Positions 20-7,218 of a stretch of 12,627 nucleotides of DNA are shown here, piece after piece. The notes under the pieces were generated by a model, which saw only the letters and a list, made by a program, of their open reading frames with translations, did no database searches and was not told the origin of the DNA. The DNA is from Microcaldota archaeon (GTDB lineage Archaea; Micrarchaeota; Micrarchaeia; Micrarchaeales; CABMGC01): positions 1-12,627 of the forward strand of contig JAJZEU010000027.1 in the NCBI GenBank assembly GCA_021805625.1, written 5' to 3'. Positions within the stretch are counted from its first letter, which is position 1. Each line of letters starts with the position of its first letter. A program made the translations under genes and the position numbers.

Positions 20-853
20 GTGGTTTCGTTGGCCAACATTAACTCGTTTATTTACTATATCTTGATCATACTCGCTTTCTTCTTCGTAATGCTAACGGCC
101 ATGGTGCCCGGCTACATAATAAGGTTTGTGTTAGTTATACTTGCACTGATTTTTGATATACTCGCCTTCTCTATGAGGTTCTACAGCTACATCTTCATGC
201 CAATGGTGAGGATGAAGAACAGGACAGCTGTATTGAACAGCGATGTGCCTTTCGTCATGTCGCCCTCAGGGAATGCCATAATAGTAAGAAAGGGCGGCGA
301 CGTCTACGCCAGCGCATTCGTGAAAATTCCCATATATAGGTCTGCAACAGAGATGAGCGATGACGAAAAGCTGGACTTCGCAAAGATGTTCAGCAGGATT
401 GTGTCGCTGAACAGGAATATCACGAAGATATCTTCGCAGCTCTACATAATAAACAAGGATGAGTATATCTCGAACATAAGGACAAAGCTGGATGAAGCAG
501 AAGACAGGTATCAGAAGGCAATGAGCGGCAAGGACAGCCAGACACAGACTGATCGTGTGAAGGGAGAAGTGACGATGTGGCACAACCTTTACGATAACGT
601 AAGCAGGGCGCAGTCTAGGGCACTGATAGCTTATGCTATGGTAACGGCTATTGGCGGCACAGATGAGGAAGCAACAAATCTCGCCGTACAGAGAGCGGAA
701 GAAACTGCAGTGGGCATAGGAACCGCACTCGGGATAAATGCGACTGTCGCTGCAGGCCAGGAAATACTGGTATTCGTGGAGCCAGAATATGCTATACCGT
801 TCTCTACAGTAAGTGCAGAACTGAGGGAGAAGGCCGTAGAAGAGGGATTGTGA
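20..853 (+). CDS. Two-TM membrane protein with VirB4 N-domain-like soluble part (copy 1)
   Basis: A protein of about 277 residues with two hydrophobic helices near the N terminus (about 10-29 and 33-55), then a soluble domain from about residue 75 to the end. The soluble part has a beta-rich start (GNAIIVRKGGDVYASAFVKI), a MFSRIVSLNRNITKISSQLY segment, a long charged helix (about 147-200) and an end containing GQEILVFVEPEYAIP. This order resembles the N-terminal domain of VirB4/TraC ATPases, and the two TMs resemble PrgI/VirB3; that reading is inference. It is a paralogue of the next gene: same length, same architecture, and G-E-F-YA-P conserved near the end. It probably forms the membrane base for the ATPase two genes downstream. 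The start is uncertain: GTG at 20 is used here, but the frame is open to the window edge, so the true start may lie upstream. Confidence 0.8.
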   Translation: MVSLANINSFIYYILIILAFFFVMLTAMVPGYIIRFVLVILALIFDILAFSMRFYSYIFMPMVRMKNRTAVLNSDVPFVMSPSGNAIIVRKGGDVYASAFVKIPIYRSATEMSDDEKLDFAKMFSRIVSLNRNITKISSQLYIINKDEYISNIRTKLDEAEDRYQKAMSGKDSQTQTDRVKGEVTMWHNLYDNVSRAQSRALIAYAMVTAIGGTDEEATNLAVQRAEETAVGIGTALGINATVAAGQEILVFVEPEYAIPFSTVSAELREKAVEEGL

Positions 854-1680
854 TGGATGAAGAAACTATAATGTACCTTGCGCTTTCAGGAGTGGTAGTG
901 CTCCTGATGCTCTTCTTCATAGGCGGCTATGGTCCTTTCAAGATCGCTGTTGTCATACTGGCGATTATTGCGCTGCTGATTATAGCGCTAATAAACTTCG
1001 CCGACTTCCTAGTATTTCCGCTCTTTACATCAATTCTCAACATCAAAATCATACCCGCGAAGGACTGCTACATACCCAAAAAGCAGAACTGCACCATAAA
1101 GAACATCAGTGGTCTGTATTATGCCACGGGCTATCTCACTGCAAATGTGTACAGTTATGCTTTCTCTGCGGAGAAGATAGAGGAAACAGAGGACATGCAG
1201 CTAGTTTCTGCTCCGGAGAAATGGGAAAGGATACTTATGAATATATCATTCCCGTTCAAGTTCAGTACTATAACATTTGCGCATGAGCTCCAAGAATATA
1301 GAGAGGGCCTTGAAGGAAAACGCGGCTTCCTCGAATTCCAGCTCTCCAAGGAGATGAACGGCAGCAATCCCAGCCAGATGGCGATAGACGACTTCCAGAG
1401 GAGGATAAATGTGCTGCAGGCGAGGATAGACAGAATCTCCAGCGGGGAAAGACCCGTTGGTAGCCTGATGTACATAGAGACTACCGCGGTTGGAGTAAGC
1501 GAGAAGGCAGCAATGGATGCGCTTGACAATCAACTCAACCAATTGCAGACAGCATTCAATGCCCTTGACCTCCAGATTTCAAGAGTGGTAGGAAGGGAAC
1601 TCTATCTCCTGTTCAACTTCAACTATGCACTTCCAATTACGACAGGAGAGATGACAAAGCTCTTCGAAGAGCAGAGGTAG
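850..1680 (+). CDS. Two-TM membrane protein with VirB4 N-domain-like soluble part (copy 2)
   Basis: A protein of about 276 residues, paralogous to the preceding gene. Two hydrophobic helices lie at about 8-25 and 30-57. A soluble domain follows, with the ISFPFKFSTITFAHELQEY segment, a long helix (about 145-200) and an end containing GRELYLLFNFNYALPITT, which matches GQEILVFVEPEYAIPFST of copy 1. GTG at 850 gives the longest frame. ATG at 853 is more likely, because it overlaps the upstream TGA stop (TGATG) and sits 5 bases after the Shine-Dalgarno AGAGGGA at 841-847. The overlap implies translational coupling, so the two paralogues are probably made together, perhaps as a hetero-oligomer. By inference it is a PrgI/VirB3-like membrane segment fused to a VirB4-type N-terminal domain, with the motor supplied by the next gene. 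The exact family is unconfirmed. Confidence 0.82.
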   Translation: MMDEETIMYLALSGVVVLLMLFFIGGYGPFKIAVVILAIIALLIIALINFADFLVFPLFTSILNIKIIPAKDCYIPKKQNCTIKNISGLYYATGYLTANVYSYAFSAEKIEETEDMQLVSAPEKWERILMNISFPFKFSTITFAHELQEYREGLEGKRGFLEFQLSKEMNGSNPSQMAIDDFQRRINVLQARIDRISSGERPVGSLMYIETTAVGVSEKAAMDALDNQLNQLQTAFNALDLQISRVVGRELYLLFNFNYALPITTGEMTKLFEEQR

Positions 1681-1693
1681 GAAGGATGATAGT

Positions 1694-3196
1694 ATGAGCC
1701 AACTAAAAGTGCAGCACCTGATGAGCAACGAACTGGCTAAGAGAGCCTTCTTCAGCAGGCCGCCGGAACCGCCAGCCGACTTTCTGCTCAACGACCCGTC
1801 AAACTCAATCTTCATAGGCATAACAAAGCTCTTCAACACACCATTTACCTGGAACTTCGATGGCCTTACCAACCCGCATATTGCCGTCGTTGGGATAACT
1901 GGCGCGGGAAAGAGCTTTTTCGTCAAGACCTTCCTGATAAGGGCGAGCTACATCTGGAACACAAATGCCATAATAATAGACTGGGCTGGAGAGTACAAGG
2001 CTTGGGTCAAGCAGAGCGGCGGCACAATCGTATCGCTTGCGAAAGGAGACTACATAAACATAATGGATCTTTCAGGCATGAAGCCCCTGGACAGGACGAA
2101 GCAGATCATGACCTCTTTGGAGATACTTACCGACATAAGCGACTTTCCGGAACAGAAGAGGCTGACAGAGGAAGCAATAGAGCAGGCTTATGTAAATGCA
2201 GGATTTGTGCTTTCAGAGATTGCTGATCCGAAGAGGGAAGCGCCGACGCTCAAGAACTGCATATCTTTGCTTGAGGAAAAGCTGCAGGAAGGCACCTATG
2301 AATATCCTGCTGAACTGGAGAACGCAGTCTACAGGCTGAGGCAGTTCGCCAGGGAGGGCGAAGACTACTTCGCAAAGAAGAGCACGCTTGACCTTGGGAA
2401 GCTCGCATCGTCAGGACTCGTTGACATAGACCTCTCCGCACTGCCTGACGAGAAGTTCAGGGCTCTTGCCGCACTCTTCATTTTGCAGTCGCTAAAGGAA
2501 AAGATGCGCATGGAGGGATGGAACGCATCGAAAGGGCTGAAGGCCATAGTGGTACTTGACGAAGCGTGGAAGATTGCAAGCGACGAGAGGAGCGATGCTG
2601 TGATGATAGTTAGGGAAGGCAGGAAGTACCAGTTCGGACTAATCGTTGCTTCGCAGAATCCTACAGATATCAACGAGGCAATATTCTCGAACGTAGGCAC
2701 AACCTTCATACTCAGGATAAAGTTCGAAAAGTTCCTCAACTACCTGCAGGGCTCAATGAACTTCTCCGATTTCATGAGGAGGGAGATAGGCAAATTTGGA
2801 GTCGGGCAGGCAGCGATAGAGATGTCGTTCCAGACATCAGTGCAGTTTCCGGAAGTGTTTCTGATAAACAGGGTAGTGGGAGAGGTGCCCCTGGATGTAT
2901 ATACGATAACGCTCTCGGAGATACTTAACACTGAGGAGATGGCGGACCAGAACGTGCAGAAAGAATACTACTTCGAGAAGATAGACCTAAATGGCAAGCT
3001 CATAGAAAACAATGTGAGCGCATCTACAATAGACGTGCTCTTCGCGGAGATGGACAAGAAGAACAGGTTCGTGGACGTGCGTGCATTTGCGCAGATACTG
3101 TTGCAGCAGCAGGTAGGAAAGCAGGACGTCATATCGGTGCTAAGGGGAATGGGTCTTACCGATTCCACCATAACAAGAATATTCACATACCTTTAG
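1694..3196 (+). CDS. HerA/VirB4-family ATPase with C-terminal helical-repeat domain
   Basis: A 500-residue P-loop ATPase without a membrane segment. The Walker A motif is GITGAGKS (67-74), followed by IIIDWAGEY (93-101), the position where VirB4/HerA proteins carry a D-x-x-x-EY motif. Walker B is IVVLDEAW (285-292). The segment REGRKYQFGLIVASQNPTDI (307-326) matches the RK-fg-l-a-Q motif of HerA/VirB4/TraC ATPases. VirB4 proteins normally carry about 250 residues ahead of Walker A; here there are only about 66, and the missing part is plausibly supplied by the two preceding genes. Residues 429-500 form an extra helical domain homologous to the protein encoded next. It starts 13 bases after the previous stop, with a GGAAGG ribosome site. 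Its role is probably to energise transport of DNA or protein across the membrane; the substrate cannot be read from the sequence. A HerA helicase role is less likely because no nurA, mre11 or rad50 is nearby. Confidence 0.88.
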   Translation: MSQLKVQHLMSNELAKRAFFSRPPEPPADFLLNDPSNSIFIGITKLFNTPFTWNFDGLTNPHIAVVGITGAGKSFFVKTFLIRASYIWNTNAIIIDWAGEYKAWVKQSGGTIVSLAKGDYINIMDLSGMKPLDRTKQIMTSLEILTDISDFPEQKRLTEEAIEQAYVNAGFVLSEIADPKREAPTLKNCISLLEEKLQEGTYEYPAELENAVYRLRQFAREGEDYFAKKSTLDLGKLASSGLVDIDLSALPDEKFRALAALFILQSLKEKMRMEGWNASKGLKAIVVLDEAWKIASDERSDAVMIVREGRKYQFGLIVASQNPTDINEAIFSNVGTTFILRIKFEKFLNYLQGSMNFSDFMRREIGKFGVGQAAIEMSFQTSVQFPEVFLINRVVGEVPLDVYTITLSEILNTEEMADQNVQKEYYFEKIDLNGKLIENNVSASTIDVLFAEMDKKNRFVDVRAFAQILLQQQVGKQDVISVLRGMGLTDSTITRIFTYL

Positions 3197-3222: not shown

Positions 3223-3519
3223 ATGGGAGAGACATTTGCGATAAATAGGATTGACCTCAGGAGGATGCTGACAATACTTGGCGTGGGGGACAAGAATATA
3301 GACAGCCTTGAAGCAGGCCTTGCAAGGATGCACAGGCATGCCAATGCGGTGGCGTTTGCAGGCATGCTGCAGAAGGCGGGACTCAGGCAGGGAGACATAA
3401 CAAACATATTCAGGAGGATAGGAATCGACGACGTAAGGATTACGGCAATAATGAACAACCTTGATGAAGAGAAGATAAACCAAGCTTACGGCAGGGTGGT
3501 GGAGCTTGTCGTGGAATAG
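3223..3519 (+). CDS. Small helical-repeat protein homologous to the ATPase C-terminus
   Basis: A 98-residue, mostly helical protein with no membrane segment or cysteine. Residues 9-80 align without gaps to residues 429-500 of the preceding ATPase, with 22 of 72 positions identical by my count. These include the AFA, R-x-x-G and IT-x-I positions. Within the domain, a unit of about 18-20 residues repeats: LTILGVGDKNIDSLEAGL, LQKAGLRQGDITNIFRRI and FRRIGIDDVRITAIMNNL. This suggests short helical hairpins. It lies 26 bases after the ATPase and belongs to the same run. It may pack against the ATPase C-terminal domain, or compete with it for a shared partner; this is inference. ATG at 3223 is the only conventional start in the short open stretch upstream, and its Shine-Dalgarno signal is weak. 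No known family is recognised. Confidence 0.75.
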   Translation: MGETFAINRIDLRRMLTILGVGDKNIDSLEAGLARMHRHANAVAFAGMLQKAGLRQGDITNIFRRIGIDDVRITAIMNNLDEEKINQAYGRVVELVVE

Positions 3520-3528
3520 GGTGGGCAA

Positions 3529-3906
3529 ATGCAAAAAAGCTACTGCATAATCTGCGGAAACGAACGCGAAGGCATAGAGATACGTGAGGATCACGTCATA
3601 AAGGCTGTGAAATGGTTCAAGACAAACATTACAAAAAACGAAAAGAACAACAGACTCGTAGTGTGCAGGGAGTGCTACCCAAAGTATGAAAAGGCGAGGC
3701 GCAGGTACCAATCAAGAAGGATAACATATACTGTACTAGGGATAATCTTCGCTGCCATAAGTCTGATCGTTTCTCCAAGGTTAGAAACTCTTGCAATGGC
3801 GGTTCTGGTGATTGCTCTTCTGTATGCTCTTTCTTACCTGAGCTACACGCCGCAGCTCAGCATAAGGGTAGATAGGCATAGCAGAGGAACGCCAAGAGAT
3901 AAATAA
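3529..3906 (+). CDS. Zinc-ribbon protein with two C-terminal membrane helices
   Basis: A 125-residue protein. The N-terminal part has two CxxC pairs, C6-x-x-C9 (YCIICGNE) and C46-x-x-C49 (VVCRECYPKY), about 37 residues apart, as in a zinc-ribbon or treble-clef knuckle. A basic stretch (about 51-64, KYEKARRRYQSRR) leads into two hydrophobic helices (about 66-82 and 87-105), and the tail is short and basic. By positive-inside logic, the zinc module and the tail should both be cytoplasmic. It starts 9 bases after the previous stop, with GGGTGGG just upstream of the ATG. The position suggests an accessory membrane subunit of the ATPase cluster, perhaps contacting nucleic acid or another subunit; no function can be assigned from the sequence. 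Confidence 0.78.
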   Translation: MQKSYCIICGNEREGIEIREDHVIKAVKWFKTNITKNEKNNRLVVCRECYPKYEKARRRYQSRRITYTVLGIIFAAISLIVSPRLETLAMAVLVIALLYALSYLSYTPQLSIRVDRHSRGTPRDK

Positions 3907-3951: not shown

Positions 3952-4674
3952 GTGCCTGAAGAAGAGATAGTGCCTAAAGTAGAGGAGATAGCCTTTGCGG
4001 GCAAGCTAATTGGGAGCTTTGAGGATATCAAAAAGAAAGTTGATATGCTCCCATTCTTCTCCTCGAAGATAGAGAACAGCGAGACAAGCATAGCTAGGGT
4101 GGAGAGCAGGAACATAAAGAAGAAGCCTTTTCTCTTTTACATAGTAAGGATAAGGAATGAAGGAATAAGCATAGTATACTCCATCGCGCCTGATACAAGC
4201 GAGAGGATGAGGAGGCTTGCTGTGGTAAAGAATGTTGCCTCGCTGCTATCGATGATAACAGACTATTATCAAGTAGACCAGGTGCGCTTCCTGCAATACG
4301 TAGACTCTGTCATAGATGACGTGTTAAATGGCCTTTCGCAGAGCTACAGCACGCTCTTCAATAAGTACGACGCGCTGCTCTCGGAGTACAGGGAGTACAA
4401 GAGGCTCAATATGGAGCTTACTGCATCGAACAGGAACCTAGCCATACAAGCATCGCAGCTCAAGAATGAGAACAACCAGCTCAAGGGCGACCTCGCGACC
4501 CTGCAGACCTATTCGGATGAATCGCTGATGGCAATGTTGCAGGACTGGATAGAGACACATAACAACTCCATAGACATTGACGAGTTTGCCGGGAACTACA
4601 AGCTCCCCTCACCTAGAGTAGAACAGATGCTCGACAAGATGGTTTCCCTTGGCTACATAGAGCTCAAGAACTAG
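3952..4674 (+). CDS. Coiled-coil protein with C-terminal winged helix
   Basis: A 240-residue soluble protein. Residues about 10-120 form an unrecognised alpha/beta domain, with a FLFYIVRIRNEGISIVYSI strand pair. Residues about 128-186 are a coiled coil (SEYREYKRLNMELTASNR, then QLKNENNQLKGDLATLQ). Residues about 190-240 look like a winged helix (LMAMLQDWIETH, LPSPRVEQMLDKMVSLGYIE). No membrane segment is seen. The start is GTG at 3952; a TGA closes the frame at 3934-3936, leaving little room for another start. It may be a DNA- or protein-binding adaptor, or a scaffold for the ATPase complex. The stop TAG is followed in the same reading frame by the small 53-residue gene. Confidence 0.8.
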   Translation: MPEEEIVPKVEEIAFAGKLIGSFEDIKKKVDMLPFFSSKIENSETSIARVESRNIKKKPFLFYIVRIRNEGISIVYSIAPDTSERMRRLAVVKNVASLLSMITDYYQVDQVRFLQYVDSVIDDVLNGLSQSYSTLFNKYDALLSEYREYKRLNMELTASNRNLAIQASQLKNENNQLKGDLATLQTYSDESLMAMLQDWIETHNNSIDIDEFAGNYKLPSPRVEQMLDKMVSLGYIELKN

Positions 4675-4845: not shown

Positions 4846-7218
4846 ATGGCAGGCAGGAAGACCAAGGTGCTCGTAGCGGTAGTGGTCGCAGTAATCATAG
4901 TCGCACTTATTGCGAGCCTTGCCATATACATAGGTAACCTTACGCGATCTCTTCATTCTGTAAATTCAACGCGTGCATTTGGAGTCATATCATTTGGAGG
5001 GTCGATAAGCAGCGCAAGCGCGCTCACGTACAGCGATGCTGCTGGCTTGGTAGGATACGCACTCGTGAGCTACAGCGCCACGAATGTAAGCAGCGTGGCA
5101 ATGAATCTTTCCATCTACACCGAAAATCCTGACTTCAGGATATACCTGCTTAACGTGAGCAGTTACTGCTACGACTGCTTCAACGAGCAGCAGCTTCTGT
5201 CTGGACTCAGCAGTTCCCTTGCCGCATACGGCCTGATGACCAACCAGAGCACCTTTTCGTTTGTCGGTATTAGCAACATAGGCAGCATCCCCAACGGCTC
5301 AATAGTCATAATACCCTCTGGGCTCATACCCACAGTGCTCATGCCGGCCGGCAATAACACCGGCATAACTTCGCTCCTCAATCGCCAAGACGCTGTGATT
5401 TATGTTGGGGACAATTTCAACAGGAGCATCGGCACAGATGGTATAATATTCTCGACGAGTCAACAGCAGCTCAACACCCTCAGGCAGTATGGCATAGCAA
5501 CAGCGGGGCTTAACAGTACACGCTCCAGATATACCAAAACCGGTGGCAACTTCACTTTTAGCAATCTCACCTTTAGTTTTGTCGGCGGCTCGAACTACGG
5601 CCCAGTCGCATATGTAAGGGCCGGCAATGGCACGCTGATCGCATTCTCCAATTATGAGACTTTCGGATGGAACAATGCAAGCGCAGAGGCGAGAGACATC
5701 GCTTTGTCGGTAGAATCAAGATTCTGGATGAACGCACTGGCGAGCGGGACTTATGGCTTCTCTGTGCAGCAACATGCTAACGGCACCGCCGGCGTTTTCA
5801 CAACGGCATCGTACCCACAGTACAGCAACGCATCGGCGCAGGAACTGAATGATTCCTATGCTTTCGTGAAGGTCTTTGCGAGAAACGGCACTGCAGGCAC
5901 GATAGATAACCTGTACTCGAGGGTGCACTTCGAACAGAACGGCTCGTTGAGCATGCCAGGCAGCATAGCCCAGACCCAGAGCGTGCCAATACAGATAGCG
6001 ATGAATGTGAACGGCACTGCACTGCAAAGCGTGTCTCCACACATCGACATATACAACAGGAACATGAGCTACATCTCAACTATACCAATAGGCTTTTTCA
6101 ATACCTCCACCAACCTCAACATAATAAAGTACACCTCTTTCTCGCTGCCGCAGGGCTCTTACATTGCCATTCTCAGGAACTTCTACGATAGGTATTATTC
6201 TGCGGCATTCTTCCAGATGGGAAATGTTACCATAACTCCAGTGCTCCTTTCGTTCTCCAACGGCACGTTCGTATTTTCAGTGAGCAGCAACAACTACCAA
6301 ATAGCGAACGCTACGTACAGTGTGGAGCTCAACGGGCAGTACAACTACAGCGGCGTGGTTGAAAATGGCAGGATATATTACACACTGCCAAAGGGTACAG
6401 TAGTGTCTTACGGCAACGAGAGTTTCGGCTTCGGACTTTTTGGCACCAGATACACCTACTCGGAGAACTATGTAAAGAAGATATTCCACATCCCCACCTT
6501 TTACATAGAGTTCGCGATCATAGCGATAGTGGTGGTAATGCTCAACCTGCTGCTCAGGGCCCCCATCAGGGATGATTACTACATAGACGTGCAGGAGTTC
6601 CCGCTTGTGAAGAAATCCACAGTCAAGACAACTACAGACCAGGTGGTAAACGTATTTAACAGAGTGAACATGATGTACCACTGGCATTACATGCCGCTGA
6701 CTCCTGAAGAAGTGAAGAATGGCATAGGCGGCGTGATAAAGTACAACAACATGCCTGTATCGATAACCCTTCAGAACACGCAGGAGATGCTTAGCTATCT
6801 TGTAGATAAAGGTAGCATAGTCTTCGCTGGGAACTACTATGCGCCGAAGAAGTGGGTTGCGGATTCGAATCATGATGTGGAGTACCTTGCGATATTCAGG
6901 AAGCTCAGGGATTACTGCGTGGCCCACGCGATGCTCTTCACAGACATAGATAGCAGTGAGGTAGCTGATGTAAGCATCACGAAGAGCGGCGTGCAGATCT
7001 ATATACTGATATATTCCGGCATTTCCGGAATGAAGAAGATATCCCTGGCAGCAGGTTCGAAATGGTACATCATCTTCATAAACGACGAAGCAAGGAGGAA
7101 TTTCCAGGACAAGCTCTACGAGGCTTCAGGAGACGAGGCGGAAGCCCTTAAGATGGGAATATACTACAGCTATGTAAAGCTTGCCGATACAGACAATCTT
7201 AACGCCATAGTGATTTGA
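4846..7218 (+). CDS. Large sequon-rich envelope protein with cytosolic winged-helix-like domain
   Basis: A 790-residue protein. Residues 7-29 are a hydrophobic signal anchor after basic MAGRKTK. Residues about 30-548 are rich in Ser, Thr and Asn, with about 27 N-x-S/T sequons by my count. A second membrane helix lies at about 551-570, and residues 571-790 form a C-terminal domain with no sequon. This contrast argues that the middle is extracellular and N-glycosylated and the tail cytosolic. C108 and C111 (YCYDC) are the only cysteine pair outside. The outer part has alternating strands such as SIVIIPSGL, DAVIYVGDN and GTLIAFSNYETFGW, which may be a flavodoxin- or amidotransferase-like fold, but this is weak. 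The first cytosolic section, about 612-668, reads like a winged helix (LTPEEVKNGIGGVIKY, TQEMLSYLVDKGSIVFAG). It is the last gene of the run and ends 12 bases from the convergent topVIB. It could be the cell-surface or partner-contact component of the ATPase machine, or a sensor linking the outside to cytosolic DNA. Family unrecognised. Confidence 0.85.
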   Translation: MAGRKTKVLVAVVVAVIIVALIASLAIYIGNLTRSLHSVNSTRAFGVISFGGSISSASALTYSDAAGLVGYALVSYSATNVSSVAMNLSIYTENPDFRIYLLNVSSYCYDCFNEQQLLSGLSSSLAAYGLMTNQSTFSFVGISNIGSIPNGSIVIIPSGLIPTVLMPAGNNTGITSLLNRQDAVIYVGDNFNRSIGTDGIIFSTSQQQLNTLRQYGIATAGLNSTRSRYTKTGGNFTFSNLTFSFVGGSNYGPVAYVRAGNGTLIAFSNYETFGWNNASAEARDIALSVESRFWMNALASGTYGFSVQQHANGTAGVFTTASYPQYSNASAQELNDSYAFVKVFARNGTAGTIDNLYSRVHFEQNGSLSMPGSIAQTQSVPIQIAMNVNGTALQSVSPHIDIYNRNMSYISTIPIGFFNTSTNLNIIKYTSFSLPQGSYIAILRNFYDRYYSAAFFQMGNVTITPVLLSFSNGTFVFSVSSNNYQIANATYSVELNGQYNYSGVVENGRIYYTLPKGTVVSYGNESFGFGLFGTRYTYSENYVKKIFHIPTFYIEFAIIAIVVVMLNLLLRAPIRDDYYIDVQEFPLVKKSTVKTTTDQVVNVFNRVNMMYHWHYMPLTPEEVKNGIGGVIKYNNMPVSITLQNTQEMLSYLVDKGSIVFAGNYYAPKKWVADSNHDVEYLAIFRKLRDYCVAHAMLFTDIDSSEVADVSITKSGVQIYILIYSGISGMKKISLAAGSKWYIIFINDEARRNFQDKLYEASGDEAEALKMGIYYSYVKLADTDNLNAIVI

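Follow-up and report, generated by a model that had tools for sequence, protein, structure and literature searches.

The 12,627-nucleotide contig JAJZEU010000027.1 of the Microcaldota archaeon assembly GCA_021805625.1 (the window, meaning here the whole stretch analysed; G000:C119 in our genome set, from a small genome that is 73% complete) probably represents the 3′ part of a chromosomal, type IV secretion-like operon similar to the archaeal Ced and Ted systems, one in which the function of VirB4 is divided over separate polypeptides. Two neighbouring genes encode proteins, here termed P1 and P2, each of which would consist of a membrane hairpin followed by a VirB4-type N-domain, and the 500 amino acid (aa) ATPase encoded after them would be the motor domain alone. 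The open reading frames (ORFs) of P1 and P2 overlap by 4 bases and a gap of 13 bases separates P2 from the ATPase. Since the contig starts 19 bases 5′ of P1, the window holds only the 3′ part of the operon, and the pilin and polytopic genes described below fall outside it. An earlier note on this DNA had proposed a split VirB4; the fold matches bear out two membrane-anchored N-domain proteins with a separate motor, and overall the proposal is supported in part. The principal features are as follows.

20..853, forward strand: P1, ORF with an AlphaFold2 model; VirB4 is the top fold match; 139 homologs
850..1680, forward strand: P2, ORF with an AlphaFold2 model; fold match to the VirB4 protein TrwK; 260 homologs; paralog of P1
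1694..3196, forward strand: VirB4/CedB/CedD-type ATPase without N-domain, 500 aa (NCBIfam, hhalign)
1892..1915, forward strand: Walker A of the ATPase, GITGAGKS, residues 67-74 (sequence)
2549..2563, forward strand: Walker B of the ATPase, VVLDE, residues 286-290 (sequence)

The separate motor and the putative membrane-anchored N-domain proteins

The ATPase carries a VirB4-type motor domain. In hhalign it matches a pNOB8-type archaeal VirB4 at a probability of 98.9, with the motor part covered, and its NCBIfam matches are CedD (5.5e-20), CedB (1.5e-19) and CD1110 VirB4 (5.9e-18). All of these lie far under the curated cut-offs (70.1 against 700 bits for the CedB equivalog and 71.5 against 600 for that of CedD), and the VirB4 model TIGR00929 gives 43.3 bits against a cut-off of 643.1, which is not reached. 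The protein does not unite N-domain and ATPase in one polypeptide: Walker A starts at residue 67, leaving 66 residues before it, as the earlier note had counted. We collected 73 copies of the ATPase at E 1e-60 or better from 58 of 60 genomes, a set made up of the window's own genome and 59 others with a completeness of 90% or more. The open frame measures 479-565 aa in 72 of these copies, the last being a 126-aa fragment at a contig edge, and in none of the 73 is an N-domain fused to the ATPase. Walker A starts between residues 67 and 97 (median 67) in 70 of the 72 family ATPases in which the motif was found, the window included. By comparison, it starts at residue 327 in pNOB8 VirB4 and at 441-484 in seven of nine distant CD1110-like VirB4 proteins (the other two gave no match to the regular expression), so that the figure of about 250 residues previously quoted for VirB4 understates the usual N-region. 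The motor is highly conserved, the window ATPase sharing 54-77% identity with 29 further copies that come from several families of Micrarchaeota; G67, G70, G72, K73 and S74 of Walker A and V287, L288, D289 and E290 of Walker B are invariant across the 30 aligned sequences.

AlphaFold2 models of P1 and P2 (predicted local distance difference test scores of 82.1 and 82.6) agree with the two transmembrane (TM) helices and soluble domain that had been read from each sequence. The TM helices are at residues 4-63 of P1 and 4-48 of P2, and the VirB4-N-domain-like domains at 75-258 and 71-276, respectively. In both predicted folds the two N-terminal membrane helices are followed by the order strand-strand-helix-strand-helix-helix-strand-helix. 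A C-terminal motif, previously written E-x-x-x-F-x-x-x-YA-P, is present and is better described as E-x8-YA-x-P. The two proteins are paralogs (hhalign probability 95-97, P 3e-8 to 3e-11), and those of their relatives that carry names are Micrarchaeota, ‘Marsarchaeota’ or uncultured archaea.

The fold search of both proteins, a check set beforehand, returned VirB4 as the best match of each model independently. The top five VIA rows for the P2 model are all VirB4 TrwK, and on superposition P1 and P2 both fall on one region of TrwK. The N-domain fold of VirB4 is present in trans. An SPFH/band-7-like fold, which the earlier note had named as the outcome that would speak against it, was rejected as a candidate: no such row is among the fold matches listed for P1 and P2, although this is no proof of absence. 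Scans of P1 and P2 with Pfam and NCBIfam gave no type IV secretion system (T4SS) family, the matches listed for the two-TM segment include no VirB3 or PrgI family, and when profiles of P1, of P2 and of the polytopic proteins were searched against PDB sequences nothing relevant came up.

Profile comparisons point to the same VirB4 domain. The N-regions of nine distant VirB4-like proteins, drawn from the distant tail of a homolog search (the one that is named comes from Streptococcus), were compared with 189 pooled N-domain proteins in hhalign, giving single-comparison P-values of 2.7e-5 for the first half and 0.0011 for the second. Twelve members of the minimal systems described below reached P 1.4e-4 against the second half, and the best control reached P 0.11 (9 and 13 control families). 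Unpooled profiles match these N-regions weakly, at P 0.0061 for P1 and 0.012 for P2. Against a pNOB8-type archaeal VirB4 the leading families compared are P2 (P 0.0094) and the minimal-system members (P 0.0053), again weakly, and P1 is not among the leaders (P 0.098). With TrwK as a single target hhalign found nothing for the N-domain proteins. The Pfam model of the VirB4 N-domain, PF03135, matches in none of the 60 genomes and also misses the Sulfolobus control.

P1 and P2 might instead be unrelated membrane scaffolds that have no more than an alpha/beta arrangement in common with VirB4, the ATPase being a tethered HerA/FtsK-type translocase. We regard this as improbable, since VirB4 is the top match for the two models independently, the profiles indicate one and the same VirB4 domain, the operon contains VirB2-like pilins, and the ATPase itself aligns with VirB4.

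A refinement that is compatible with a divided VirB4 is that P1 and P2 are specialised counterparts of the two N-domains, central and outside, that VirB4 contributes to the hexamer of dimers in R388; each would then be complete, not one half of an N-domain. Passages of PMC9259494 describe the R388 dimer as held entirely by N-domains, with VirB3 binding only the central VirB4 and the role of the outside copy called unclear; these features, together with the superposition of both models on one TrwK region, favour the refinement. Against it, P1 slightly and weakly prefers the first half of the VirB4 N-region (P 0.0021, versus 0.004 for the second, which hardly discriminates) and P2 leans to the second (P 0.0047 versus 0.061), and minimal systems manage with one N-domain. 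We consider it possible, though somewhat doubtful. The two VirB4 halves do not match one another significantly (hhalign P 0.22), so that a duplication within the VirB4 N-domain is not shown.

Distribution in Micrarchaeota and a four-gene form

The VirB4 split is phylum-wide in Micrarchaeota. The P2 profile matches 247 of 295 Micrarchaeota genomes, and 88 of the 96 with completeness of 90% or more and contamination of 5% or less. In the 60-genome set the N-domain profile matches 58 genomes, as do the ATPase profile and the pilin profile, and the same two (G037 and G059) are without all three; both are also absent from the P2 matches in the 295-genome search. An N-domain gene lies within 1.1 kilobases (kb) upstream of 69 of the 73 ATPase copies. 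On the same strand and within 126 base pairs (bp) one is found for 27 copies; for 42 copies a P1-profile match lies 164-1,074 bp upstream, 41 of these at 840 bp or more, which leaves room for a P2. The four exceptions are in G046 (1,559 bp), G017 (P1 about 22 kb away) and one copy each in G026 and G009.

We also fetched loci by their P2 match, taking the best 80 of 83 confirmed (81 sequences with the window). Two N-domain ORFs are present in 75 of the 80, a full-length separate ATPase in 71 and all three in 66, and with such counts the three-gene pattern is not due to chance. The ATPase lies within 200 bp of an N-domain ORF in 65 of the 71 loci with a full-length ATPase. Usually the polytopic proteins come first, and P1, P2, the ATPase and four further families termed tail, F5, F3 and F4 follow in that order. 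An assembly or frameshift artefact was rejected on the strength of the 71 full-length separate ATPases. A mobile element was likewise rejected: there was no P2 match on plasmids at E 0.01 and none was confirmed in viral contigs, and the recurrence of flanking families (F6 in 58 and F7 in 47 of the 81 sequences) also counts against it.

The earlier note had described the N-domain as duplicated. This is true of the present lineage only: in many Micrarchaeota loci each ATPase is accompanied by one N-domain gene, and several other families of the phylum show a single such gene before the ATPase. Six second loci contain, in this order, a pilin, one polytopic protein, one N-domain protein and an ATPase of 353-449 aa; as weak matches to N-domain, to pilin or to polytopic proteins were the basis on which these loci had been chosen, the agreement of six out of six is by selection. 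One of the six belongs to the window's own genome (L119:9161-12978, where L119 is G000:C113), and in it overlapping frames encode a pilin truncated by the end of the contig, a single polytopic protein, an N-domain protein, a 376-aa ATPase and a coiled-coil/winged-helix-like protein. The minimal unit resembles VirB2, VirB6, VirB3 plus the VirB4 N-domain and the VirB4 motor, and also the Ted gene set. Where a genome carries both the minimal and the expanded form, one putative channel protein can be compared directly with six.

Pilins, polytopic proteins and related systems

The locus includes VirB2/TrbC-type pilins, of which 10 of 13 aligned sequences match PF18895 and 6 of 13 match PF04956. In nine of the 80 loci the fetched flank includes a pilin ORF, upstream of the polytopic genes, and in other genomes (for example G020, G034 and G036) pilins share a contig with P1 and lie some 11-13 kb upstream of it. 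Searched against PDB sequences, the pilins have TrwL first at E 0.063, with unrelated channel subunits next at 0.1-0.17. Two genomes, at G042:C8 and G055:C2, show ten to twelve pilin-profile matches each, several in frames of 476-1,290 aa, which are possible pilin-domain fusions or arrays.

Exactly six polytopic genes precede P1 in 50 of the 80 loci, and contig ends truncate many of the others. All six positions are homologous to one another, and profiles built for each position from 47 of the 80 loci recur as best match in the order 1 to 6 in four loci of a distant family (L092, L101, L102 and L103). In a tree of 62 rows, for which main-locus rows of at least 560 aa were trimmed to their last 460 residues, positions 2, 5 and 6 form well-supported orthologous groups, position 3 a weak one (77/89), and neither position 1 nor position 4 forms a single group; the corresponding N-domain tree was built from 69 chosen rows. 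The polytopic paralogs stand at the place expected of a channel protein and are possibly VirB6-like. No VirB6 or TrbL family is among their Pfam and NCBIfam matches, which include one weak T4SS_pilin match (E 0.0015), and a comparison with R388 TrwI gave nothing. Six tandem paralogs could form a hetero-oligomeric channel. In one family (L092, L093, L096 and L104) the operon is flanked by very large proteins (1,155-1,453 aa) with one hydrophobic segment, which are candidate surface proteins.

Taken together with the known systems, these components suggest how the apparatus might work. The N-domain proteins would form a membrane-embedded collar beneath a VirB6-like channel, onto which the ATPase ring would dock, and ATP hydrolysis would lever VirB2-like pilins from the membrane into a pilus, drive substrate through the channel, or both. 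P1 and P2 would provide in trans the two N-domain units that a bacterial VirB4 chain, or dimer, provides. A more elaborate and quite tentative model is a hetero-oligomer in which a VirB4 ring lacking N-domains is completed in trans by the two anchored paralogs and the six VirB6-like paralogs of fixed order make up a channel of six different subunits, the whole having evolved from a minimal machine of four genes (pilin, channel, N-domain and motor) still found in these genomes. With the motor apart from its docking domain, the role of the VirB4 N-domain would be directly testable, including that of the R388 outside VirB4 (passages of PMC9259494).

The closest relative in organisation is the Ced system of Sulfolobales (CedB and CedD, CedA/CedE, CedA1), which is likewise archaeal and chromosomal, combines pilin, polytopic protein and VirB4-type ATPase, and divides its N-domain content; CedD and CedB are also the top NCBIfam matches of the window ATPase. 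Passages of PMC11868833 report that the VirB4 N-domain is matched in superposition by CedB in one part and by CedD in another. The claim that no described system has such an arrangement was therefore too strong. However, in CedB as in CedD the N-domain remains joined to the ATPase in a single chain, whereas the Micrarchaeota motor has its own gene, with one or two N-domain genes; the CedB/CedD division is the nearest precedent and the Micrarchaeota split goes beyond it. The Ted system of Thermoproteales (TedC, TedA, TedB), a minimal set of pilin, polytopic protein and VirB4-like ATPase in passages of PMC9905601, is like the minimal Micrarchaeota locus in its genes but differs in that the Micrarchaeota N-domain is a separate gene. 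The VirB3-VirB4-VirB6-VirB8 complex of R388 shares the N-domain fold, motor class and pilin, but there VirB4 is one chain and VirB3 separate; passages of PMC12624023 note that VirB3-VirB4 fusions occur at times. Nanohaloarchaea, also of the DPANN, have giant SPEARE proteins and VirB4/TraG-like ATPases; these ATPases are proposed to be secretion machinery, but the neighbouring one has PF03135 in the same chain (passages of PMC10266531).

By analogy with Ced the cargo could be DNA, with protein or host contact equally possible. That the apparatus delivers protein or makes host contact, and is not a DNA transporter, is in our estimate a little short of an even chance, and would be compatible with the divided VirB4. 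Passages of PMC5498576 report host dependence and pili-like contacts for ARMAN archaea. In Patescibacteria, which passages of PMC12102498 describe as epibionts with chromosomal T4SS, mostly without relaxase and with VirB2-like pilin arrays, T4SS genes are required for epibiotic growth; there, VirB4 and the PrgI/VirB3 homolog are separate families and those passages mention no VirB4 split. VirD4 matches are also few (PF02534 in 5 of 60 genomes, at a marginal E of 9e-5 or weaker), unlike in R388. On the other side, the closest named ATPases are DNA-import proteins. VirD4-like segments occur in giant frames at G044:C15:89226-89360 (4,596 aa) and G003:C6:8809-8955 (3,271 aa), which recall the nanohaloarchaeal SPEARE proteins.

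If the reading of a divided VirB4 is correct, most Micrarchaeota genomes encode at least one type-IV-like pilus machine missed by the standard models used, and the pili-like host contacts of Micrarchaeota would have a genetic basis. No Micrarchaeota T4SS or stand-alone VirB4 N-domain was found among the best matches in the open-licence PMC literature. Mia14 is presumably a Micrarchaeota archaeon. For it, passages of PMC5498576 report systems for type IV pili as well as probable conjugative elements, with no mention of ‘VirB’.

Downstream genes

Four further genes of the recurrent order lie within the window.

3223..3519, forward strand: tail protein, 98 aa, homolog of the ATPase C-terminal domain (hmmsearch, hhalign)
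3529..3906, forward strand: two-TM protein with N-terminal Cys pairs, family F5 (hmmsearch)
3952..4674, forward strand: coiled-coil protein with a C-terminal winged-helix/PCI-like end, family F3 (weak Pfam matches)
4846..7218, forward strand: 790-aa protein with two hydrophobic segments, family F4 (family recurrence)

The tail protein matches the tail family at 3.3e-45 and the ATPase family at 2.5e-8 in hmmsearch, and the two families are homologous (hhalign probability 97.4). It resembles the last 80 or so residues of the ATPase and adjoins it in many loci, as a second motor C-terminal domain in trans. The F5 member matches its family at 6e-57, and this family is found in 60 of the 80 fetched loci. 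F3 and F4 each recur in 64 of the 81 sequences, the window included; the F4 protein has no significant family match in Pfam or NCBIfam scans. Read by eye, the genes past F4 appear to be of housekeeping type, with putative topoisomerase VI B-like, KH-domain, eIF2-gamma-like and AAA ATPase products.
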